Positions 1 to 27,589 of a stretch of DNA of 32,500 nt are shown here, in pieces. Origin of the DNA: Sandaracinus sp. (GTDB lineage: Bacteria; Myxococcota_A; Polyangia; Polyangiales; Houyiibacteriaceae). The notes beneath the pieces are model-generated. The model was given only the letters and a program-made list of their open reading frames with translations, was not told where the DNA came from and ran no database searches. Every line of letters begins with the position of its first letter. The first letter of the stretch is position 1. The translations under genes and the position numbers were made by a program. Location of the stretch: contig PABA01000165.1 of NCBI GenBank assembly GCA_002699025.1, forward strand, positions 1 through 32,500, given 5' to 3'.

Positions 1-560
1 CCCTGCGGTCGGGCGGCCGTCCGTGGTTCGCCCTCCCTGCGGTCGGGCGGCCGTCCGTGGTTCGCCCTCCCTGCGGTCGGGCGGCTGTCCGCGGTCCGCT
101 GTCCGCTGTCCGTGCTGGCGCTCGGCTGGTGCGGTCCATGCCGCTTCGCGGAGCTGCGGGGGAGTGGCTGCGTCGCGGAAATGCCCTCCCTGCGGTCGGG
201 CGGCTGTCCGCCGTCCGCTTTCCGCCGTCCGTGCTGGCGCTCGGCTGGTGCGGTCCATGCCGCTTCGCGGAGCTGCGTCGCGGAAATGCCCTCCCTGCGG
301 TCGGGCGGCTGTCCGCCAACCGCTTTCCGCCGTCTGTGCTGGCGCTCGGCTGCTTCGGTCCATGCCGCTTCGCGGGGCTGCGGGGGAGTGGCTGCGTCGC
401 GGAGAGGCCCTCCTTGCGGTCGGGCGGCTGTCCGCCGTCCGTGCTGGCGCTCGGCTGCTGCGGTCCATGCCGCTTCGCGGGGCTGCGGGGGAGTGGGCTG
501 GCTCGCGGTTCGCCCTCCTTGCGGTCGGGCGGCTGTCCGCAGTTCGCGGCGCGGCAGCCG
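1..560 (+). repeat. Imperfect GC-rich direct repeats, unit about 105-119 bp
   Basis: The core CTGCGGTCGGGCGG recurs near positions 5, 39, 71, 190, 296, 415 and 519. The longer units from 71 onward also share GTGCTGGCGCTCGGCT, GCGGTCCATGCCGCTTCGC and a GGGGGAGTGG block, with alternating spacing of about 119 and 105 bases. Several open frames cross the array, but their products are low-complexity Arg/Ala/Cys/Pro translations of the repeat and resemble no known protein. I therefore read the stretch as non-coding. The array runs off the left edge, so its full length is unknown. A related copy lies at 22441-22519 and an inverted copy at 627-676. Confidence 0.85.
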
Positions 561-679: not shown

Positions 680-1744
680 TCAGCGCAGCTTCAGCCACTT
701 GCCGCGCTCCGGGTAGAGCGGGAAGCGCCACATGCGCGAGTCGACGTAGTAGTGCATGGCCACGACGAAGGCCAAGGGCAGCTCGGCGACGCGCACGTCC
801 CGGAACGCCGCCCGCGGCGCCATGATCACGACCCCGTAGAACATCGTCAGGCCGAGGTAGAGCCAGGCCTTGCCGCTCCCGAGCCAGGCGACGAGGGCGT
901 TCAGCGGCGCCTCCGGATCGCGCGCCCGGTTGCGGTTGTGGAACCACGTCAGGCCCAGGTACTGGAGGTTGTGGTAGGCGGTCACGACCGCCACCGAGAC
1001 GATGATCTCCTCGATGACGAGGTTCGCCAGCCCGAAGGCGAAGACGACGCTGCCGAGGAGCATGGCCCGCGGGCCGAGACCGCGGCGCCCGCGCTTCCAC
1101 AGCACCGCGTGGTGCCCGAGGGCGCCGAGCACGAGCGCCACCCACACGCCGAGCACACCCATCCACACCGGGTCGGGGAGCACCGGGTGGCGGATCCACA
1201 CCTCGATGCCGCCGGCGTGGATGGTCATCAGCTCCGGATCGCGGAAGCGGACGAGGAGCGGCAGGTAGCAGATCGCGTCGAGGAAGCGCGCGTAGAAGCG
1301 CGACTCGCCCGCCGGGACGTTCCCCATCTTGCGCTCGTAGAGGCGCAGGAAGCCGTAGTGCTGGCGGACGAGGTGGTAGTAGCCCCAGTAGATCAGCGCG
1401 TCGCGCACCCAGGGGTAGACGCCGTCCGGGCTGAAGGCCATCGGGAGGCCGAGGACGGCGAGCGTGACCAGCGCGGCGACGAGATAGCGGCGCCCGTGCT
1501 TCTTCCGGTCGGTCGGGTCGAGGACCGACATGGTCCACGTCTGGAAGTTGTGGGGCATGTTGAAGAGCAGCTGGAACGCGGCGTAGACGGTCACGCCGGT
1601 CAGGAGCCCCACGGAGAAGCCGGCCCAGAGGAGGAGCGGCACGAGCACGCTGGCGGTGAAGAAGAGCGTGTCGTAGCGGCCGGAGACGATCCACGCGGGG
1701 GCCGGGAGGGCGCGGGCGGGCGCGGCGGTGGTCGTCACGGTCAC
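680..1744 (-). CDS. Histidine-rich polytopic membrane protein, function unknown
   Basis: The product is 354 residues with roughly seven hydrophobic segments (for example around residues 29-60, 88-105, 195-212 and 225-255), so an inner-membrane protein is likely. Four His-bearing motifs sit in or beside the membrane segments: MPHNFQTW, YYHLVRQHYGFLRLYERK, AYHNLQYLGLTWFHNRNR and AMHYYVDSRMWR. Such spacing is what membrane metal enzymes use (desaturase, hydroxylase or Brp/Blh-type), but I cannot place it in a named family and claim no reaction. The start is GTG, 7 bases after the SDR stop codon, so it is probably the last gene of the set ACAD-like/SDR/membrane protein and translationally coupled. 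No clear Shine-Dalgarno site precedes it. Another in-frame GTG lies two codons downstream. Confidence 0.85.
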   Translation of the reverse strand: MTVTTTAAPARALPAPAWIVSGRYDTLFFTASVLVPLLLWAGFSVGLLTGVTVYAAFQLLFNMPHNFQTWTMSVLDPTDRKKHGRRYLVAALVTLAVLGLPMAFSPDGVYPWVRDALIYWGYYHLVRQHYGFLRLYERKMGNVPAGESRFYARFLDAICYLPLLVRFRDPELMTIHAGGIEVWIRHPVLPDPVWMGVLGVWVALVLGALGHHAVLWKRGRRGLGPRAMLLGSVVFAFGLANLVIEEIIVSVAVVTAYHNLQYLGLTWFHNRNRARDPEAPLNALVAWLGSGKAWLYLGLTMFYGVVIMAPRAAFRDVRVAELPLAFVVAMHYYVDSRMWRFPLYPERGKWLKLR

Positions 1745-1751
1745 GGGCGCA

Positions 1752-2522
1752 TCACCAGTTGTTGTTGAGGTGGGCGCCGCTGGTGGCGTCGATCACCGCG
1801 CCGGTGATCGCGGCGGCGCGCGGGGAGCAGAGGAAGGCGACGACGTCGGCGACGTCCTCGGGGCGGGTGAGGGTGCGGGTGGCCGTGGCGCGCTCGAGGG
1901 TGCGGCGAGCTTCGGGGTCGCCGGCGATGCGCGCGAGGACGCGCTCGGTCTCGGCGATGCCCACGTTGCAGACGTTCGCCGTCACGCCGCGCCGCGCGTA
2001 GTCGACGGAGAGGCCGCGCGCGAGCCCCTCGAGGCCGGCCTTGTGCATGGAGTAGAGCGTGCCCCCGGCGACGCCGGCGCGCCCGGCCATGCTCCCGAAG
2101 AGGACGACGCGGCCGTAGCGCGCGACCATCATGTCGGCGACGAGGCGGCGGCAGAGGCGCGCGGCGGCCTCGAGATCGAGGGCGAGCCAGGCCTCGGCGC
2201 TGGCGTCGTCGACCGTGTGGAGCTTCTGGATGCGGTAGCGGGAGGCGGCCGCGTAGACGAGGATCGTCGGCGCCCCGTGGGCCTCGCGGAGCCGCTCGAG
2301 CGCCGCGTCGGTCGCTCCGACGTCCGTCAGGTCGGCGACCAGCCCGAGCGCCTCGGCGCCGGCCTCGCGGGCGGCGGCGCAGGTCGCCTCCACGACCTCG
2401 GGATCGCGCCCGAGCGGGGCGACGAGGGCACCCTCCCGGGCCAGCGCGAGCGTGGCCGCGCGACCCAGGCCGCGCGTGCCGCCGGCGATCAGGGCGACCC
2501 GTCCTCGGAGCTCGAGATCCAT
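1752..2522 (-). CDS. Short-chain dehydrogenase/reductase (SDR), FabG-like
   Basis: The product is 256 residues, normal for a classical SDR. It has the Rossmann cofactor motif GGTRGLGRA near residue 14, a VADLTD acidic motif after the fourth strand, a catalytic Ser in VLFGSMAGRAG, and the YSMHK catalytic Tyr/Lys pair. Classical SDRs of this type are NAD(P)-dependent oxidoreductases, often beta-ketoacyl reductases; the actual substrate is not visible. The usual NNAG motif reads YAAAS, and the protein ends in the unusual HLNNNW. The ATG at 2522 gives the expected N-terminus (MDLELRGRVALI); the longer in-frame extension is a shadow of the upstream gene. The start overlaps the end of the acyl-CoA dehydrogenase-like gene by 34 bases, which implies one operon and a shared pathway. 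Confidence 0.92.
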   Translation of the reverse strand: MDLELRGRVALIAGGTRGLGRAATLALAREGALVAPLGRDPEVVEATCAAAREAGAEALGLVADLTDVGATDAALERLREAHGAPTILVYAAASRYRIQKLHTVDDASAEAWLALDLEAAARLCRRLVADMMVARYGRVVLFGSMAGRAGVAGGTLYSMHKAGLEGLARGLSVDYARRGVTANVCNVGIAETERVLARIAGDPEARRTLERATATRTLTRPEDVADVVAFLCSPRAAAITGAVIDATSGAHLNNNW

Positions 2523-4186
2523 GGGGCGGCGTTCAGGATCGCGAAAAGGGCGCGCCCCGTCGAGCCGCGCGCGTCGTCGGCGTCCCGCAGGGCGGCGGCT
2601 TCGTCCGGCGCGCCCAGCTCCGCGAGGCGCGCCGCGACGGGCTCGGCGGCGACGCGCGCCGCGTGGGCGAAGGCGGGCCCCTCGCCGGCGAGGGGGCGGA
2701 GGGCAGCCAGGCCGTGGAGCCAGGCGGCCGCCTCCGAGAGGCGGAAGCGCACGTCCTGCGGCGCGCGCCGGCTCTCCCGGGCGCGGGACCGGACGGCGTC
2801 GGCGGCGGCCTTCCAGGGGCCCGCGAGCATGCCGGGCGGGGCCATGGCGCGGACGGCGTCGTCCTCGGCCCAGGCGTCGAAGGGGCCGCCGTGGTGGAGC
2901 GGGGGGGGGCTGCCGTCCTTCCAGGCGAGGGCGTGGCGCCAGAGCTCGTCCTGCTGGAGCGGGCTCGAGCCGTCGAAGATGGCGAGCACGGGCGCGTCGC
3001 GGCGGAGCCGGTGGAAGGGGTGCGGGCGGAAGAGGGAGCGGGCGCCGAGGAGCGTGCCGACGTCGCGGATCGAGTCCTCGAGGAGGCGCGGCGCGAGGAG
3101 CTTGGCGGCGCAGGTCCAGGCGCGGGCGGCGAGGGCGGCGCGGGCCGTGGCGCGGGCGGCGAGGCGGCCGAGGGCCCAGGCGAGCTGGAGGCGGGCGAAG
3201 ACGTCGGCGAGGAGCTGGCGGACGGCGTCGAGCTCGGCGATGGGGGCGCCGTAGAGGCGGCGCGCGCGGGCGTGGGCGAGGCCGTGGGCGAAGGTGGCGG
3301 CGTGGGCGCCGAGGGCCATGCAGGCGACGCCGCTCCGGGAGATCTCGAGGGTGCGGCGGGTGAGCGCGAAGCCGTCGCCCGGGGCGCCGAGGAGCGCCGA
3401 GGCGGGGAGGGGGGCGTCCTCGAGGCGGACGGTGTCGAGGTCGAGGCCCGGGTAGCCGCTCCAGGGGACCGGGCCGCCTGCGCGGAGGCCCGGGGTGCCG
3501 CGCGGGACGAGGAAGAGGCTCGCGCCGAAGGGGTCGCCGGCTTCGCCGGTGCGAGCGAGGACGACCAGGCGCGCGGCGCGGGAGGCGTTGTTGATGGGGC
3601 GCTTGAGGCCGCGCAGGCGGAAGGTCGCGGCGGCCTTCGCATCGGTGGGGTTGCCGCCGGCGTCGAGGGGGTTGGCGAGGGTCTCGCCGGCGAGGAGATC
3701 CGAGCCGTGGGCCCACTCGCTCAGGCCGAGGCCCGCGAGGCCGCCGGCCCGGACGGCGCCGAAGAAGTCCGCGCGCTGCGTGGCGTCGCCAGCCACCAGC
3801 ACGGGCAGGCTCCCGAGGACGACGCCGCCGAGGCAGAGCGTGAAGCCGAGGTCGTGGGCGGCGAGGCGCGCGCAGACGCGCATCAGCGTGCCCCAGTCGA
3901 GGTCGCCGCCCTGGTCCGCGGGCACGAGGGCGCGCCCGAGCGGGCCGCGGAGGAGCGCCTCGAGCTCGGCCTCCGGGAAGGCGCCGGCCGCCTCCAGGGC
4001 GTCCGTCCTCGCGGGCGGGAGCGTCTCCCGGACGAAGGCCTCGAGCGCCGCGAGCGTCGCCGCCTCGCCCGGCTCCGGCGGGTCGAGCGCCGCGTCCAGG
4101 GCGGCCGCCACCCGCAGCGGTCCGGCGCGATCGAGGGCCTCCAGCTCCACCGCTCTCTGATCGCCCGCGCGGCGCTCCGCCGTCAA
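2489..4186 (-). CDS. Acyl-CoA dehydrogenase-like flavoprotein with altered active site
   Basis: The product is 565 residues, longer than the usual 380-400 of the family. Recognisable parts are the alpha-helical N-terminal region (to about residue 140), the flavin-contact segment LGLSEWAHGSDL, the middle beta domain ending near ALLGAPGDGFALTRRTLEISR, and the C-terminal helical domain, then about 130 extra residues rich in Ala. In medium-chain acyl-CoA dehydrogenase the catalytic base lies in an EGT motif; here the matching segment reads FDGSSPLQQDEL, with Asp in place of Glu. The protein may be a slow or repurposed dehydrogenase, or a non-dehydrogenase relative. The start used is a TTG; an in-frame GTG at 4150 is a reasonable alternative. 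The gene is divergent from the GH3 gene at only 32 bases and overlaps the SDR downstream. Confidence 0.85.
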   Translation of the reverse strand: MTAERRAGDQRAVELEALDRAGPLRVAAALDAALDPPEPGEAATLAALEAFVRETLPPARTDALEAAGAFPEAELEALLRGPLGRALVPADQGGDLDWGTLMRVCARLAAHDLGFTLCLGGVVLGSLPVLVAGDATQRADFFGAVRAGGLAGLGLSEWAHGSDLLAGETLANPLDAGGNPTDAKAAATFRLRGLKRPINNASRAARLVVLARTGEAGDPFGASLFLVPRGTPGLRAGGPVPWSGYPGLDLDTVRLEDAPLPASALLGAPGDGFALTRRTLEISRSGVACMALGAHAATFAHGLAHARARRLYGAPIAELDAVRQLLADVFARLQLAWALGRLAARATARAALAARAWTCAAKLLAPRLLEDSIRDVGTLLGARSLFRPHPFHRLRRDAPVLAIFDGSSPLQQDELWRHALAWKDGSPPPLHHGGPFDAWAEDDAVRAMAPPGMLAGPWKAAADAVRSRARESRRAPQDVRFRLSEAAAWLHGLAALRPLAGEGPAFAHAARVAAEPVAARLAELGAPDEAAALRDADDARGSTGRALFAILNAAPWISSSEDGSP

Positions 4187-4218
4187 CGGCGAGGCGCCTT
4201 CCGTGGTACCCCGGAGCC

Positions 4219-5907
4219 ATGGCCGCCCCGCCGCCCGCTCTGCTCCACGCCCTCGGGCAGGCTCAGCGCACGCCGACGGCGCTCGCCTTCGCCGCCGCCG
4301 CCCTCCGCCCGGCCGCCGCCCAGCGCCGCCGCCTCGAGGCCGCCGTCGCGCTCGGCCGGGACAGCGCCTACGGGCGCGCCCACGGCCTCCGCGGCGCGAC
4401 CGATCCGAAGAGCTACGCGCGGAACGTCCCCGTCCTCACGCCCGAGGCGTTGAAGCCCTGGGTCGCGCGGCAGATGCGCGGCGAGGCGGCCGTGCTCACC
4501 ACCGAGCGCCCCGTCTACTACGTCCGCACCACCGGCTCGACGGGCACCCCCAAGCACATCCCCATCACCCCCGCCTACCAGGCCGAGTTCCAGAAGACCG
4601 TCCACGTCGCCCTCTGGCACCTCTACCGTCGCTTCCCCGCCGCCTTCATCGGCCGCGCCCTCTACTTCGTCGGCTCGAGCCAGGTCGACGTCGCCCCCGA
4701 TGGCGCCCCCATCGGCACCATGAGCGGCTACAACTTCGCCGCGCTCTCGCCCCTCGTCCGCGCCATCTACGCCTGGCCCCAGGCGCTCTTCGAGGTCGAG
4801 GACCTCGCTACCCGCAGCTACCTCGCCCTCCACCTGGCCTGCCTCGGCGAGGTCTCCCTCGTCGCCGGCATCTTCCCGGCGCCGATCGTCTACCTCCTCC
4901 GCGACCTCGAGGCGCGCGCCGGCGAGCTCGCCCGCCACCTGGGCCTCGGCGAGCTCCCGGCCTGGCTCCGGCTCACGAGCGCCGAGCGCGCCACCTTCGA
5001 GCACGGCCTCGTCCCGCGCCCCGACCTCGCCGAGCGCCTCCGGGAGGCCGAGCGCGCGCCCGTCGAGGAGAAGGTCGGCTGGGCCCTCCCGCAGCTCCGC
5101 CTCGTCTACTGCTGGACGAACGCCACCGCCGGCGCCTACCTGCCCGAGCTCCAGCGCCGCCTCGGCCCGGCCGTGGCGATCCGCGACGCCATCTACTCCG
5201 CCTGCGAGGCCTGGTGCTCGATCCCCGTCGGCGACGAGGCGCCGGGCGGGCCCTTCGCGATCACCAGCCACTACTTCGAGCTGGTGGAGGAGGCGCGCGC
5301 CGAGGCCGTGGGCGACCCGAGCGCCCTCGTCGCCGACGACTTCCGCACCGTCGACGAGGTCGAGGACGGGCGCCGCTACTACATCGTGCCGACCACCTCG
5401 GGCGGGCTCTACCGCTACTGGCTCGGCGACGTAGTGGAGATCGTCGGGCGCCACGCGCGCACGCCGCGGCTCCGCTTCGTGCGCAAGGGGGGCGCGGCGA
5501 CCAACCTCGTCGGCGAGAAGCTCGACGAGGCGCACGTCAACGCGGCGGTCGCGGCCGGCCTCGAGGCGCTCGGGCTCGAGGCGACCTTCTTCATGGTCAC
5601 GCCGCGCCCGGAGCCCGGCGAGCGGCCCGCCTACGTGCTCTGGATCGAGCTCCCCCCCGACGCGCCCGACGCCGTGCTCGGGCCGCTCGCCGAGCGGGTG
5701 GACGTGGCGCTCCAGGAGGGCTCCTTCGATCTCGGGCGCGTACGGCGCGCGGCGCAGCTCGGGCCCCTCGAGGCGCGGCGCCTCCCGCCAGGCAGCTACG
5801 CGGCGCATCGGCAGGCGAAGGTCGCGGCGGGGAGCGCCGAGTCGCAGCTCAAGGTCGCCCACCTCGGCGACGCGCTCCCGCCGGACCTCGCCGCGCGGGC
5901 TCGCTGA
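4219..5907 (+). CDS. GH3 family acyl-adenylating enzyme (auxin-responsive promoter family)
   Basis: The product is 562 residues, a normal size for GH3 proteins. GH3 enzymes belong to the adenylate-forming superfamily and usually join a carboxylic acid to an amine or amino acid through an acyl-AMP; the bacterial substrates are mostly unknown. The ATP-binding motif is at residues 104-112 (TTGSTGTPK) followed by HIPIT. The segment GGLYRYWLGDVVEI and the FVRKGGAATNLVGEKLDEAHV region match the hinge and C-terminal domain of the family. No signal peptide is present, so it is cytosolic. The ATG follows GGAG at only two bases, a tight but possible ribosome binding site. It is divergent from the acyl-CoA dehydrogenase-like gene, so the two may share a control region and possibly a pathway. 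Confidence 0.93.
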   Translation: MAAPPPALLHALGQAQRTPTALAFAAAALRPAAAQRRRLEAAVALGRDSAYGRAHGLRGATDPKSYARNVPVLTPEALKPWVARQMRGEAAVLTTERPVYYVRTTGSTGTPKHIPITPAYQAEFQKTVHVALWHLYRRFPAAFIGRALYFVGSSQVDVAPDGAPIGTMSGYNFAALSPLVRAIYAWPQALFEVEDLATRSYLALHLACLGEVSLVAGIFPAPIVYLLRDLEARAGELARHLGLGELPAWLRLTSAERATFEHGLVPRPDLAERLREAERAPVEEKVGWALPQLRLVYCWTNATAGAYLPELQRRLGPAVAIRDAIYSACEAWCSIPVGDEAPGGPFAITSHYFELVEEARAEAVGDPSALVADDFRTVDEVEDGRRYYIVPTTSGGLYRYWLGDVVEIVGRHARTPRLRFVRKGGAATNLVGEKLDEAHVNAAVAAGLEALGLEATFFMVTPRPEPGERPAYVLWIELPPDAPDAVLGPLAERVDVALQEGSFDLGRVRRAAQLGPLEARRLPPGSYAAHRQAKVAAGSAESQLKVAHLGDALPPDLAARAR

Positions 5908-5936: not shown

Positions 5937-6992
5937 TCAGAGCCCGACGGCCACCGCCTCGATGAACTCCGCGCAGCAGGCCGTCACGGCCTCGCGGCAG
6001 AGGGCGGCGCCGGCGCCGCTCGGGTCGACCTCGCAGGTCGTGCTCTCGCGCCCGTCGGAGCAGACCGCGACGCCGCCGTCTTCCGCCGTGACCGTGTAGG
6101 GCCCGCAGACGAGCTGGCAGCCGCCGGCGTCGGAGCGGAGGACCCAGTTGCTCGCGTCGAGGCAGTAGCTCGCCGCGCGGCAGGTCGCGTCCTCGCAGAT
6201 CTGCCCTTCTCCGCACTCCGAGCCGCAGGCGCCGCAGTTCTGCGCGTCGCGGACCAGGTCGGTCTCGCAACCGGGGAGGTCGTCCGTGCAGTCGCCGAAG
6301 CCGGCCTCGCAGGCGATGTCGCAGCCGTCGCCGTCCGGCGCGCAGACGGGCCGGGCGTGGGGGCCGAGCTCGGCGCCGGACGGGCAGGCGTCCCCGCAGG
6401 CGGTGCAGTCGAGGAGCGTGCCGAGCTGCGTGCAGCGCTCCGCGGCGTCGTCGCAGCGCGCCCACCCCTCGCCGCAGTCGAAGCCGCAGGCGCCGTCCTC
6501 GCACTTGGCCGTGCCTCCGGTGGGCGCCGGGCAGACGTTGCCGCAGGCGCCGCACTGGCCCGGCTCGTCGAGGGAGTCGCAGATCCCGTCCGAGTCGCAG
6601 TCCTCGGTGCCCTCCGGGCAGACCGCCCCGTCGGGGCGGGGGCGGCTCGCGTCGGGCGTGCTCATGCCCCCGTCGGACGTGTTCATGCCGCCGTCCGCCG
6701 CCCCGGCGTCGCGGACCTCGCGGCAGCTGCAGACCTCGCAGCCGTCGGGGCCGATCGCGAAGCCGTCGGGGCAGGCGATTTCGCAGGTCACCGGCTCGCA
6801 GTCGACGCCGCAGGCGCCGATGGCCGCCACCTCGATCGACGCCGCCGCCGCCGCGCAGCGGTCGGCGTAGGTCACGCCATCCATGCCGCAGACGGCGCCG
6901 CCCCCACAGAGATCCACGTCCGAGGCGCACCCGCCCGCCGCTCCGAGCAGCGTCGCGCACAGCCCCACCCACACCACCAAGCAAGCCCTCAT
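5937..6992 (-). CDS. Secreted Cys-rich protein with Kazal-like, antistasin-like and Stig1-like repeats
   Basis: The product is 351 residues. The N-terminus (MRACLVVWVGLCATLLGAAGGC) is a signal peptide, and the Cys may be a weak lipobox. Residues about 28-59 have the Kazal pattern with CGMDGVTYADRC and a closing GAC. This is followed by CEPVTCEIACPDGFAIGPDG and CEVCSC, which fits an antistasin-like domain; both folds are serine protease inhibitors in known cases. A Ser/Asp/Gly linker with repeated DGGM precedes Cys-rich modules of the type QCGACGNVC and NCGACGSEC, common in myxobacterial surface proteins. A protease-inhibiting or adhesive role outside the cell is an inference. The gene converges with GH3, with 29 bases between them. 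Confidence 0.85.
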   Translation of the reverse strand: MRACLVVWVGLCATLLGAAGGCASDVDLCGGGAVCGMDGVTYADRCAAAAASIEVAAIGACGVDCEPVTCEIACPDGFAIGPDGCEVCSCREVRDAGAADGGMNTSDGGMSTPDASRPRPDGAVCPEGTEDCDSDGICDSLDEPGQCGACGNVCPAPTGGTAKCEDGACGFDCGEGWARCDDAAERCTQLGTLLDCTACGDACPSGAELGPHARPVCAPDGDGCDIACEAGFGDCTDDLPGCETDLVRDAQNCGACGSECGEGQICEDATCRAASYCLDASNWVLRSDAGGCQLVCGPYTVTAEDGGVAVCSDGRESTTCEVDPSGAGAALCREAVTACCAEFIEAVAVGL

Positions 6993-7294: not shown

Positions 7295-9217
7295 TCATCG
7301 GTGCGTGGGGCGCCGCCGGAGGAGCCGCTGCGCCCGCGCCGCCGCGAAGCCCACACCGGAGCGCGCGAAGATGTAGGCGAGCTTCAGCTTGCTCGTCCGC
7401 CGCACCACCAGCTCGTCCCGCAGGAAGAGGTCCCGCGTCAGCGTCCGCTGCCGCTTCCCGCTCGAGGTCTTGGGCACGGTCCCCGGCGGCACGAGCACCA
7501 CCTCGTCGACGCGCAGCCCGCACTCCTCCTGCACCCGCCCGGCGATCGCCTCGGCGACCGCGGCCCGGGCGTCCTCCTCCTCGAGCTTCGTCTCGCAGAC
7601 CAGCACCAGCAGATCCTGCTGCTGGTCCTCGTCGTAGACCCCGAAGGCCACGCAGCAGCCCTTCCGCGCCCCCTCCACGCGCTCGGCCACGGCCTCCACG
7701 TCTTCCGCGTGGTAGTTCCGCCCGCGCACGATGATCAGGTCCTTCACGCGCCCGGCCACGTAGAGCTGGTCCTCCACGAAGTAGCCGAGGTCGCCGGTCC
7801 AGAGCGTCTCCCCGCGGAGCACCTCCCCGGTCGCCTCCGGCGCGTCCAGGTAGCCGCGCATCACCGAGGGCCCTTGCACCACCACGTGCCCCACCTGCCG
7901 GTCCGGCAGCGGCCGCCCCTCGGCGTCCACCACGTAGACCCGATGCCCGGGCACGGCGGCGCCGCAGCCCACGAGCACGGTCGAGCCCGGCCCCTCCGCC
8001 GGGATGGCGTGGCCGCGGGCGAGCGCCTCCCGATCGACCCGGTCGTGCTTCACGGGGCGCCCGAGCGGCGGGAAGGTGGCCGCGAGGCTGGTCTCCGCGA
8101 GCCCGTAGACCGGGAAGAAGGTCGTGTCCCGGAAGCCCGCCGGCGCGAAGCGCTCCTCGAAGGCGCGGAGCGTCTCCCAGCTCACGGGCTCGGCGCCGTT
8201 CAGGGCCACGCGCCAGCTCGAGAGGTCGAGCCCCTCGAGATCGCGCACGCGCTTGAGGCAGCGCGCGTAGCCGAAGTTCGGCGCCGGCGAGAGCGTGCCC
8301 CGGTAGTCGCCGATGGCCTTCAGCCAGCGCCGCGGGTTCAGCAGGAAGGCGCTCGGCGACATGATGACGAGCGGGAGCTTCCAGTAGGCGGCGAAGAGCA
8401 GCACGCCGATGAGGCCCATGTCGTGATAGAGGGGCAGCCAGCTCACGACCACGTCGTCGCCGCCCACGCCGAGGGCCTGGCCGATGGCCTGGATGTTCGC
8501 GCAGAGCGCCCGGTGCGTGAGCACGACGCCCTTCGGGTGGCCGGTCGAGCCCGAGGTGTACTGGATGAAGGCCGGCTCGCTCGGCTTGGCGCGGGTCGGC
8601 ACCTCGGCCGTCGCGCCCTCGGCGAGGAGCCCCTCGGTGGACCAGAGGGGGCGCTCCACCGTCGCGAGCTCGCCGATCAGGAGGCGGAGCTTGCGGGTCG
8701 TGATCACCGCCTTCACGCCGGCGTGGTCGGCGATGCGGCGGTTCTTCGCGAGGGCGATCTCCGCGCGCTCGAGCATGGAGGGCGGGTAGGTCGGCACGGG
8801 CGTCGCGCGGAGGAGCGTGAGCGCGAAGAAGCTCAGCACGAACTCCCAGCCCGTCGGCAGCACCAGCAGCACCCGGTCGCCCTGGCCGACGCCGCGGGCG
8901 GCGAGGCGGCCGGCGAGCCGCTGCGCCTCGGCGGCGAGCTCGGCCCAGCTCCGGTGCTCGGGCGCCTCGCTCTCGCGCTCCGGGAGGAGCGTCATGCCCG
9001 TCTCGTCGCCGCGCTTGAGCGCGTGGAAGAAGGCGTGCGTGAGCGTCGGGTAGATCGGCTCGAGGGGCAGCCCCGGCGGGGGCACGCTGCCCGGGCGCCG
9101 GTGCCGCGCGAGGGCCTCGAGGGCGAGCTCCGGCATGGAGACGCGGAACTCGCGCGAGGAGAGCGGATCGTCGTCCTCGGGCGGGCCGAGGTCGAGCTCG
9201 AGGCTCTTGTCGATCAC
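7295..9217 (-). CDS. Fatty acyl-AMP ligase (FAAL)
   Basis: The product is 640 residues. It has the AMP-binding P-loop YTSGSTGHPKG at residues 220-230, the SWLPLYHDMGLIG motif at 259-271 typical of FadD32-like FAALs, the TPVPTYPP segment near 139, and a C-terminal domain with GRVKDLIIVRGRNYHAEDVE and PKTSSGKRQR. FAALs activate a fatty acid as acyl-AMP and load it on an acyl carrier protein rather than on CoA. The natural acceptor is the ACP encoded two genes upstream. The GTG start overlaps the carboxyltransferase stop by 4 bases (GTGA), so the three genes are translationally coupled. Telling a FAAL from a CoA ligase rests on these motifs and on the ACP; the insertion loop was not aligned. Confidence 0.93.
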   Translation of the reverse strand: MIDKSLELDLGPPEDDDPLSSREFRVSMPELALEALARHRRPGSVPPPGLPLEPIYPTLTHAFFHALKRGDETGMTLLPERESEAPEHRSWAELAAEAQRLAGRLAARGVGQGDRVLLVLPTGWEFVLSFFALTLLRATPVPTYPPSMLERAEIALAKNRRIADHAGVKAVITTRKLRLLIGELATVERPLWSTEGLLAEGATAEVPTRAKPSEPAFIQYTSGSTGHPKGVVLTHRALCANIQAIGQALGVGGDDVVVSWLPLYHDMGLIGVLLFAAYWKLPLVIMSPSAFLLNPRRWLKAIGDYRGTLSPAPNFGYARCLKRVRDLEGLDLSSWRVALNGAEPVSWETLRAFEERFAPAGFRDTTFFPVYGLAETSLAATFPPLGRPVKHDRVDREALARGHAIPAEGPGSTVLVGCGAAVPGHRVYVVDAEGRPLPDRQVGHVVVQGPSVMRGYLDAPEATGEVLRGETLWTGDLGYFVEDQLYVAGRVKDLIIVRGRNYHAEDVEAVAERVEGARKGCCVAFGVYDEDQQQDLLVLVCETKLEEEDARAAVAEAIAGRVQEECGLRVDEVVLVPPGTVPKTSSGKRQRTLTRDLFLRDELVVRRTSKLKLAYIFARSGVGFAAARAQRLLRRRPTHR

Positions 9218-10791
9218 GGCTCCCCCTCGAGCGCGACCAGCGCCTCGCAGAGGCTCGCGCGGAGCGCCTCGGGCGGGACCACGCGGTCGACGTAGCCCTC
9301 GTGGGCGGCGGCCCAGACGTCGCCGTGGAGCGCGAGCCAGCGCGCCCGGAAGCGCTCCCGCTCGGCGTCGTGGACGGCCCGCTCGGCGTCGCCCGCGTCC
9401 TCCCCGAGCGGCGGCATCGCGAGGCGCTCGGCGGCGTCGACCCCCATGGGCGCGACCTGCGCCGTCGGCAGCGCGAGCCGGTAGTCGGCGGCGTAGCTCA
9501 GCACGTTGGCGCCGCCGTAGCTCTTGCGGAGGAGCACGGCCAGCCGGGGGCTCCGGCAGCGCCCGTAGGCGTCGAGGAGCTCGGCGCCGAAGGGGAGGAT
9601 GCCGCCCTGCTCCTGCTCCTTGCCGGGCCAGTAGCCGGGCACGTCGCAGAGGGTGACGAGGGGCAGGCCGCGCTTGGAGGCGAGGCGCACGAAGGCGCTC
9701 CCCTTCCGCGAGGCGTCGACGTCGAGGCAGCCGGCGCGGTGCTGGGGCTGGCTCGCGAGGAAGGCGACGGCGCGGCCCCCGAGGCGACCGAAGGCCGTGA
9801 GGAGGTTCCGCGCGAAGGGGGCGCCGAGCTCGAGGAGCGTGCCCCGATCGGTGAGGGCCTCGAGCACCTTGCGGGCGTCGTAGCCGCGGCGCGGGTCCGT
9901 GGGGACGATGGCGCCGACCTCGGGGGTGGGGCGCCCGGGGGCGTCGCCCGTGTCGACGCGCGCGTCGGTCAGGAGCGCCAGCGCGCGGCGGAGCCAGGCG
10001 ACGCCGGCGGCCTCGTCCTCGAGCACGGCGTGGCAGGCGCCGGTCGTCGAGGCGTGCATGGCCGGGCCGCCGAGCTCCTCGAGGCCGACCTCCTGGCCGG
10101 TCATGACGCGCGTGAGCTTGGCGCCGGTGATGAAGAGGAAGCTCTGCCCCTCGACCATGCCGACCAGATCCGTGAGCGCCGCCTGGTAGGCCGCGGCGCC
10201 GACGCCGAGGCCGCAGACGAGCGTGAGCTGGAGGCCACGGGCCCGGAGGCGGATCGTGCGATCGATGACCTCGCCGTAGGCGTCGACGGCGAAGGTGCCC
10301 TCGTCCACGCGGACCCCGTCGCAGTCCACGAGCGAGAGGACCGGGAGGTCGCGGGCGAGGGCGGCGTCGAGGAGGCGGACGAGCTTGCGGCTGGCCGCGT
10401 GGCCGAGGGCGCCGCGGAGCACGGTCGGGTCGTGGGCGTAGACGGCGACGGGGCGACCTGCGACGCGCGCGAAGCCGGCGCGGAGGCCGTCGCCGGGCGG
10501 GCGGTTCGAGGCGAGGACGTCGCTCTGGGCGGCGAAGCGATGCTTCACGTGGCGCGCGAGCTCGACGAAGCTGCCCGGGTCGACGAGGGCCTCGATGCGT
10601 CCGATGGCCGTGCCGCGGCCGAGGCGGGCCTGCCGCGCCTGGCGCGCGCGCCCGCCGCCCTCTTCGACGCGCCGCTCCTCCTCCTCGAGGCGCGCGCGCC
10701 AGGGCTCGGTGCCGGCTTCGCGGCCTCCCTCGCGGCCGCGCTCTTCGCCGCCCCCCTCCTCGCCCCCCCCTTTCTCGCCCCCTGCGCTCAT
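9214..10791 (-). CDS. Acyl-CoA carboxylase carboxyltransferase (beta) subunit-like protein
   Basis: The product is 525 residues from the ATG at 10791, which overlaps the ACP stop by 4 bases (ATGA). The family (propionyl/methylmalonyl-CoA carboxyltransferase) moves CO2 from carboxybiotin to an acyl-CoA. The N- and C-terminal crotonase-like halves are visible, with GLGVGAAAYQAALTD and FLFITGAKLTRVMTGQEV in the first half, and DVPGYWPGKEQEQGGI, RKSYGGANVLSY and LPTAQVAPMGVDAAERL in the second. The first 70 residues are a low-complexity Glu/Gly/Arg stretch, partly in place of the normal N-terminus. No biotin carboxylase or biotin carrier protein lies in the window, so those partners must come from elsewhere, or the protein may have another activity. 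Its place between ACP and FAAL suggests work on an acyl chain or its extender. Confidence 0.9.
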   Translation of the reverse strand: MSAGGEKGGGEEGGGEERGREGGREAGTEPWRARLEEEERRVEEGGGRARQARQARLGRGTAIGRIEALVDPGSFVELARHVKHRFAAQSDVLASNRPPGDGLRAGFARVAGRPVAVYAHDPTVLRGALGHAASRKLVRLLDAALARDLPVLSLVDCDGVRVDEGTFAVDAYGEVIDRTIRLRARGLQLTLVCGLGVGAAAYQAALTDLVGMVEGQSFLFITGAKLTRVMTGQEVGLEELGGPAMHASTTGACHAVLEDEAAGVAWLRRALALLTDARVDTGDAPGRPTPEVGAIVPTDPRRGYDARKVLEALTDRGTLLELGAPFARNLLTAFGRLGGRAVAFLASQPQHRAGCLDVDASRKGSAFVRLASKRGLPLVTLCDVPGYWPGKEQEQGGILPFGAELLDAYGRCRSPRLAVLLRKSYGGANVLSYAADYRLALPTAQVAPMGVDAAERLAMPPLGEDAGDAERAVHDAERERFRARWLALHGDVWAAAHEGYVDRVVPPEALRASLCEALVALEGEP

Positions 10792-11045
10792 GCCGTCGCG
10801 TCGCCGCCCTTCTTGGCGAGCACGAAGCCGGCGAGCTTGTCGACCGTGTGGAGGTCCCGGTACTCGTCGAGGTCCGCCTCGAAGTCGAAGGCCTTCTGGA
10901 GGAAGTAGACCAGGTCGACGATGTCCAGGCTGTCGAGGCCGAAGGTGCCCCGAAAGGAGGCCTCCGCCGTGACCTTCTCGGGAGGCACGCCGAAGTTCTC
11001 GTTCAGGATGTCGCGCACCGTCTTCAGGACGTCGTCGCGGGTCAA
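10788..11045 (-). CDS. Acyl carrier protein
   Basis: The product is 85 residues. The phosphopantetheine site is Ser39 in FGLDSLDIVDLVYFLQ, with the usual helix 1 (TRDDVLKTVRDILNENF) and an acidic helix II region. The TTG at 11045 is chosen because GGAGG stands 6 bases upstream and the protein then has normal ACP length; the longer frame adds an Arg-rich shadow. It is the first gene of the ACP/carboxyltransferase/FAAL operon and overlaps the next gene by 4 bases. It most likely carries the acyl chain delivered by the FAAL. The 193 bases between it and the barrel gene hold no feature I can support beyond this ribosome binding site. Confidence 0.93.
   Translation of the reverse strand: MTRDDVLKTVRDILNENFGVPPEKVTAEASFRGTFGLDSLDIVDLVYFLQKAFDFEADLDEYRDLHTVDKLAGFVLAKKGGDATA

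Positions 11046-25463: not shown

Positions 25464-26864
<1,401 letters not shown>

Positions 26865-27019: not shown

Positions 27020-27589
<570 letters not shown>

Follow-up and report, generated by a model that had tools for sequence, protein, structure and literature searches.

A conserved gene set around an ACP-carboxyltransferase-FAAL operon in Sandaracinus sp.: a candidate acyl pathway with a GH3-family synthetase

The 32,500-nucleotide stretch of Sandaracinus sp. DNA considered here (the window) is the whole of contig PABA01000165.1, C176 in our numbering, from a genome of 9.24 Mb in 238 contigs. It carries an operon of three genes encoding an acyl carrier protein (ACP1), an acyl carboxyltransferase (CT) and a fatty acyl-AMP ligase (FAAL), and to its left a block that includes a GH3-family synthetase. 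Comparison with relatives, cited by our handles for genomes (G), contigs (C) and loci (L), shows that both are part of a conserved, uncharacterised group of about a dozen genes. Its probable role is to link two chains of the fatty-acid type and couple them to an amine. Members of the set found in the window are as follows.

680-1744, minus strand: membrane protein of no known family, with conserved His at 65, 124, 211, 212, 258 and 331
1752-2522, minus strand: short-chain dehydrogenase/reductase (SDR), probable beta-ketoacyl reductase (PF13561, 124 bits; start set by alignment with relatives)
2489-4150 (GTG start) or 2489-4186 (TTG start), minus strand: flavoprotein resembling acyl-CoA dehydrogenases (ACAD-like; PF00441, 73.5 bits)
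4219-5907, plus strand: GH3-family acyl-amide synthetase (PF03321 152, PF23571 57.8 and PF23572 40.4 bits)
7295-9217, minus strand: FAAL (GTG start, 640 aa; AMP-binding domain, 240 bits)
9214-10791, minus strand: CT, biotin-type acyl carboxyltransferase, beta subunit-like (ATG start, 525 aa; PF01039, Carboxyl_trans, 346 bits)
10788-11045, minus strand: ACP1, free-standing acyl carrier protein (TTG start, 85 aa; PF00550, PP-binding, 38.5 bits)

The operon and the left block

An earlier note on this DNA described three genes joined by four-base overlaps with the ACP gene first, and this is the arrangement found: on the minus strand the junctions read ATGA at 10788-10791 and GTGA at 9214-9217, and a GGAGGAG ribosome-binding site precedes ACP1. 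Seven relatives of the same class keep the ACP-CT-FAAL order, as does one genome from a different class; both overlaps recur in G007 and G402. Conservation of order and overlaps argues that the operon is not a product of chance. The phosphopantetheine site of ACP1 is DSL, the Ser of the GxDSLD motif being invariant in 10 orthologs; the carrier is presumably loaded by the FAAL.

A FAAL and a CoA ligase can be told apart by an insertion, which the earlier note had named as the feature to look for. In the window protein 48 residues separate the YGLAE motif from the next conserved motif; the spacing is 48-54 residues in eight FAAL orthologs as against 25-27 in five sequences of AMP ligase 2, a second ligase described below. 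The insertion thus amounts to some 22 (at least 21) extra residues past YGLAE, without counterpart in AMP ligase 2, and the protein aligns through this region with the solved FAAL 3pbk. Its nearest solved structures are FAALs (3pbk, 7r7g, 3kxw and FadD32), and the top 18 PDB matches are all FAALs or FAAL-like loading, polyketide synthase (PKS) or nonribosomal peptide synthetase (NRPS) proteins, with 4-coumarate CoA ligase following at 110 bits. Among NCBIfam models the FAAL models score 448-206 bits and the CoA ligase PRK06187 scores 182; the best, PRK09192 (fatty acyl-AMP ligase, 448 bits), is under its cut-off of 600, and PRK07768, named a CoA ligase, reaches 398. On the insertion a CoA ligase is rejected, and from its sequence the protein is a FAAL, predicted to transfer acyl-AMP to holo-ACP rather than to CoA.

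The identification of the CT likewise stands, with PF01039 spanning residues 56-522 and both oxyanion regions (GLxVGAA and YGGAxV) conserved. Orthologs in eight other genomes of the class are 51-66% identical, paralogs resembling propionyl-CoA carboxylase (PCC) about 40%. The acyl site appears remodelled: four residues of PCC-like enzymes are deleted, and Val stands in place of the specificity Asp of PccB, a residue which governs acyl-chain choice in S. coelicolor PccB. A separate PCC-like CT is encoded elsewhere in the genome and the cluster CT forms a distinct group, which rules out a housekeeping propionyl-CoA carboxylase. Five loci with a biotin carboxylase domain, all outside the cluster, are candidate partners, as when subunits are shared.

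In the left block (680-5907) the genes that the earlier note listed were found. The GH3 gene has all three GH3 domains; such enzymes form acyl amides by way of acyl-AMP. Six further genomes of the class hold orthologs at 46-65% identity, and G402 holds one at 53%; the next best matches are at 34-36%. The ACAD-like gene, which the SDR gene overlaps by 34 bases, encodes a protein with the ACAD fold in which Asp (FDGSS or FDGSA) replaces the catalytic Glu of the (Y)EGT motif in all seven cluster orthologs; because of this replacement, ordinary dehydrogenation is doubtful. In G186 the slot beside the SDR (L048:2936-4675) holds a different, canonical ACAD (26% identity, IYEGT motif), apparently a gene replacement inside the cluster. 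The SDR retains its Ser-Tyr-Lys residues and a C-terminal HL(N/H)N(L/N/G)W motif in eight orthologs.

The membrane protein has no relative in Pfam, NCBIfam or the PDB. Its AlphaFold model (pLDDT 81, from a 9-sequence alignment) gave nothing with an E-value below 0.6 in a Foldseek search of the PDB; VIA-align returned matches with Z of 5-7.5, mostly rhodopsins. Since such values are in the range expected for helical bundles, no function can be assigned from the fold. The conserved His residues suggest a metal-dependent membrane enzyme. Homologs of about 30% identity occur outside the cluster in other genomes of the class (L094:8704-9798, L065 and L066). One distant homolog adjoins a cytochrome c-like gene, and the neighbours of these homologs offer no clear functional clue. 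Together the His-rich proteins constitute an undescribed membrane protein family. Nothing corresponding to the Cys-rich protein between the two blocks (5937-6992) lies next to these genes in relatives, and it is not counted as part of the pathway.

A second module, linkage and co-occurrence

The loci of relatives also hold a second AMP ligase with a second, small ACP, a pair of KASIII ketosynthases and a membrane acyltransferase of the hexapeptide-repeat type. The genes that the earlier note had listed do belong to the set, and these further ones had been missed. The note had also expected a small set without a polyketide synthase: there is no PKS gene in the loci, but the set is larger than supposed and has two ketosynthases. 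In the window genome the module is on contig C170.

C170, 393-1802: AMP ligase 2
C170, 1790-2824: KASIII-A
C170, 4286-4513: ACP2
C170, 4510-5514: KASIII-B (73% to G007)
C170, 5428-6267: hexapeptide acyltransferase

The carrier Ser of ACP2 is intact, as is the Cys-His-Asn triad in nine KASIII-A and ten KASIII-B sequences. In G238 the KASIII-A gene (L051:12447-13486) is out of frame, with 157 aa open and intact neighbours, which reflects either decay or an assembly error. In G007, and there alone, a flavoprotein gene like CrtI or carotenoid isomerase lies just upstream of KASIII-A (L031:3273-4877).

C176 and C170 open with one and the same minisatellite, which has a repeat unit of about 110-120 bases (window 1-540, at the contig start, and C170:1-215). 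A 101-base probe from it matches 83 places on dozens of contigs, in many cases as tandem copies and in some at the ends of contigs, and the repeat probably breaks the assembly. With 83 matching places, adjacency of the two contigs cannot be claimed.

One way to ask whether the operon, the left block and the KASIII module belong together is to measure how often they occur together. Co-occurrence was surveyed in 317 genomes of the same class, one sample of species, mostly drafts, in which relatives' genes were called with a simple codon-usage caller. Owing to kinship the genomes are not independent, and Fisher values computed by genus (six genera hold the CT) are the fairer ones. Nine of the 317 genomes have a CT ortholog. 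The membrane protein ortholog (at least 55% identity; next best 33%) is found in eight genomes, all of them among these nine (8/9 versus 0/308; Fisher p 4e-15, by genus 1e-8). KASIII-A is likewise found in eight genomes (8/9 versus 0/308 with respect to CT; p 4e-15, by genus 7e-11), and the GH3 ortholog in seven (6/9 versus 1/308; p 4e-10, by genus 1e-8). Only one genome with the CT, G236, lacks the membrane protein; this genome is 83% complete, and its cluster is on a contig of 7.6 kb.

Physical linkage gives the same picture. In six relatives the trio is on the same contig as the membrane protein and SDR genes. In G266 and G263 every element is on one contig, along with a major facilitator superfamily (MFS) transporter and a LolD/LolCE/HlyD-type exporter; in G186 a single contig of 26.7 kb holds every biosynthetic element (with the different ACAD) and an MFS gene. 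In G237 a single contig carries everything except AMP ligase 2. In G238 GH3 is missing from the contig as well, which stops where GH3 is expected, at the gene that comes before it in the sister genome G237. The trio and KASIII module are together in G007, and on that contig about 35 kb separates them from the GH3, ACAD, SDR and membrane protein genes. Most of the core gene set recurs in a second class: in G402 the trio lies 10 kb from a run of KASIII-A, ligase, ACP2 and KASIII-B on one contig, the AMP ligase being recognised by position and a weak match only, and GH3 is on another contig. A scan of contigs with exact short motifs, by which divergent orthologs are missed, returned a single true ortholog, G007 record JAEPMI010000001.1.

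On the basis of linkage and co-occurrence we are confident that the trio, the left block and the KASIII module constitute one pathway; chance neighbours are ruled out. The earlier note had proposed one acyl pathway from trio and left block, an idea set against the possibility that the trio is conserved without that block. This is not the case, given that eight of the nine CT genomes carry the membrane protein.

Other features were seen in and around these loci. The G266 cluster contains a gene that matches the MntA antitoxin model at cut-off, with a small neighbour (L049:13668-14506), and an AbiEii-like gene flanks the cluster in L052. In the window, GC content falls from about 0.75 to 0.62-0.66 directly past a tRNA-Asn gene (27020-27093), which is adjoined by a gene for a class II (D, K, N type) tRNA synthetase (25464-26864); the segment 27000-32500 looks like an island inserted at the tRNA gene.

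A proposed two-chain condensation and its alternatives

What is observed is gene content, linkage, co-occurrence and intact catalytic motifs; from these we infer substrates, step order and product. Our best reading, which we hold tentatively, is a decarboxylative condensation of two chains followed by amide formation by GH3. The FAAL would load a fatty acid onto ACP1, and the CT would carboxylate the alpha carbon of the chain as acyl-ACP or acyl-CoA, assisted by a biotin carboxylase encoded outside the cluster. AMP ligase 2 would load a second acid onto ACP2. A KASIII would then hold one chain on its Cys and condense it with the carboxylated chain, with loss of CO2, to give an alpha-substituted beta-keto acyl thioester. 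The SDR would reduce the ketone, and the ACAD-like and His-rich membrane proteins would modify the chain; GH3 would form an amide with an amine or amino acid, and one more acyl group may come from the hexapeptide protein. Export of the product would fall to a transporter of the MFS or MacAB/Lol type, such as relatives encode.

This reading is suggested because a decarboxylative condensation of two chains calls for the components found here: two pairs of ligase and carrier, a CT of its own and KASIIIs with full triads. The intact residues (carrier Ser in both ACPs, Ser-Tyr-Lys in the SDR, Cys-His-Asn in the KASIIIs) and the FAAL insertion are in its favour. So are the linkage and co-occurrence of the genes, the KASIII module held by the window genome itself, the five biotin carboxylase loci from which a partner for the CT could come, and the GH3 of another bacterial pathway, which makes N-acyl ornithine (PMC12493201).

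A number of observations weigh against it. The CT scores higher with propionyl-CoA-type subunits (313 bits) than with the long-chain AccD4 (237 bits), and because it groups with the former its substrate may be a small acyl group. In G237, G238 and G240 no AMP ligase 2 turned up next to the cluster, so that the loading of the second acid may differ there. The membrane protein is not universal to the set, since no ortholog was found in G402; G186 has a canonical ACAD instead of the ACAD-like ortholog; and in the window genome the two halves of the set are on separate contigs. KASIII enzymes are, moreover, able to transfer acyl groups without condensation.

This last capacity is the basis of a different reading, which we regard as improbable: the KASIIIs act as acyltransferases, the CT does no more than feed malonyl-CoA, and an acylated amino lipid is assembled without new C-C bonds by the FAAL together with the GH3 and hexapeptide proteins. 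KASIII-A is indeed divergent (139.6 bits against a model cut-off of 249), the hexapeptide protein weakly matches the Pls/PosA terminal region, and a GH3 enzyme makes N-acyl ornithine in another system (PMC12493201). However, both KASIIIs keep Cys-His-Asn, the decarboxylative condensation set, KASIII-B is above the general KASIII cut-off (279 versus 249), and a dedicated CT in an operon with an ACP and a FAAL exceeds the needs of malonyl-CoA supply. Also unlikely, in our estimation, is a pathway by way of an unusual extender unit on an ACP (aminomalonyl- or hydroxymalonyl-ACP, for example), produced by AMP ligase 2 and ACP2 with the help of the ACAD-like protein and the SDR. A KASIII would join this unit to the FAAL-loaded fatty acid to yield a sphingoid-like alpha-amino (or hydroxy) beta-keto lipid, with the CT supplying malonyl or carboxyacyl units. 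Discrete sets of ligase, ACP, ACAD and dehydrogenase make aminomalonyl-ACP in zwittermicin; AMP ligase 2 scores nearly alike with amino-acid adenylation domains (165 bits) and with CoA ligases (189 bits), and the ACAD-like protein is closest, though weakly, to odd ACADs including the carrier-protein dehydrogenases RedW and PigA. Yet in no locus is the ACAD-like gene adjacent to AMP ligase 2, and G186 carries a different ACAD.

That a CoA ligase, a propionyl-CoA carboxylase subunit and an ACP are housekeeping genes brought together by chance, with an unrelated left block, we consider barely credible. Each protein does come from a large and common family, but the CT belongs to a distinct ortholog group with a clear identity gap and a patchy distribution (nine of 317 genomes), the genome has its own PCC-like CT elsewhere, and strict co-occurrence, with an order conserved across two classes, contradicts the idea.

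Comparison with known systems

No described pathway with this combination of genes was found in the open-access literature, in agreement with the earlier note, which knew of no named pathway with this set. The set, conserved and undescribed, combines a GH3 and two KASIIIs with a dedicated CT, two pairs of ligase and carrier and a His-rich orphan membrane protein, and it offers a pathway setting for a bacterial GH3 outside the ornithine-lipid pathway. In that pathway (OlsH/OlsI, planctomycetes) the GH3 enzyme OlsH makes N-acyl ornithine from free fatty acid and ATP (PMC12493201). The likeness is that of a bacterial GH3 in a lipid setting; the present GH3 scores 51 bits against a cut-off of 620 for the curated OlsH model, which rules out membership, and neither an OlsI nor an OlsG partner is seen beside it.

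In nocuolin A biosynthesis in cyanobacteria, a ketosynthase supplied by FAAL-loaded carriers makes a beta-keto acid from two fatty acyl chains, a precedent for that part of the condensation reading (PMC11837247). The noc cluster is a PKS/NRPS hybrid (PMC5333925), whereas the present loci are without PKS or NRPS genes; a carboxyltransferase and a GH3 go unmentioned for noc in the parts of these two sources consulted. The cispentacin set, with the 2-oxoglutaryl-ACP ligase AmcH and the ACP AmcB, resembles ours in its discrete ligase and carrier. AMP ligase 2 matches the AmcH model at 122-146 bits, far under the cut-off of 370; the comparison covered the ligase and the ACP.

The nearest analogue is the mycolic-acid condensation locus accD4-pks13-fadD32 of Corynebacteriales, a system whose product is an alpha-alkyl beta-hydroxy long-chain acid; in both cases a FAAL, carrier sites and an acyl carboxyltransferase are encoded together. 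In mycobacteria FadD32, AccD4 and Pks13 condense separately loaded chains and the ketone is reduced afterwards (PMC2625445). The logic proposed here is the same: one chain is activated as acyl-AMP and passed to a carrier, the other is carboxylated, and Claisen condensation and ketone reduction follow (PMC2625445). The present set differs in that neither the window nor the loci of relatives contain a Pks13-like type I PKS (ACP-KS-AT-ACP-TE), the set having two KASIIIs instead; it has discrete ACPs and a second ligase/ACP pair, its CT is closer to PccB than to AccD4, and it adds GH3, ACAD-like, hexapeptide and membrane proteins, which the description of the mycolate system does not mention (PMC2625445). 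Because the defining Pks13-like synthase is absent, the set is not a member of the mycolate system. By analogy it might represent a type II (discrete-enzyme) form of mycolic-acid condensation outside the Actinobacteria, in which an alpha-branched beta-hydroxy acid becomes an exported amide, a proposal to which we attach a low probability. If true, mycolate-style condensation would be possible with small, separate enzymes, and bacterial lipids of an undescribed class, secreted or part of the envelope, would await isolation.

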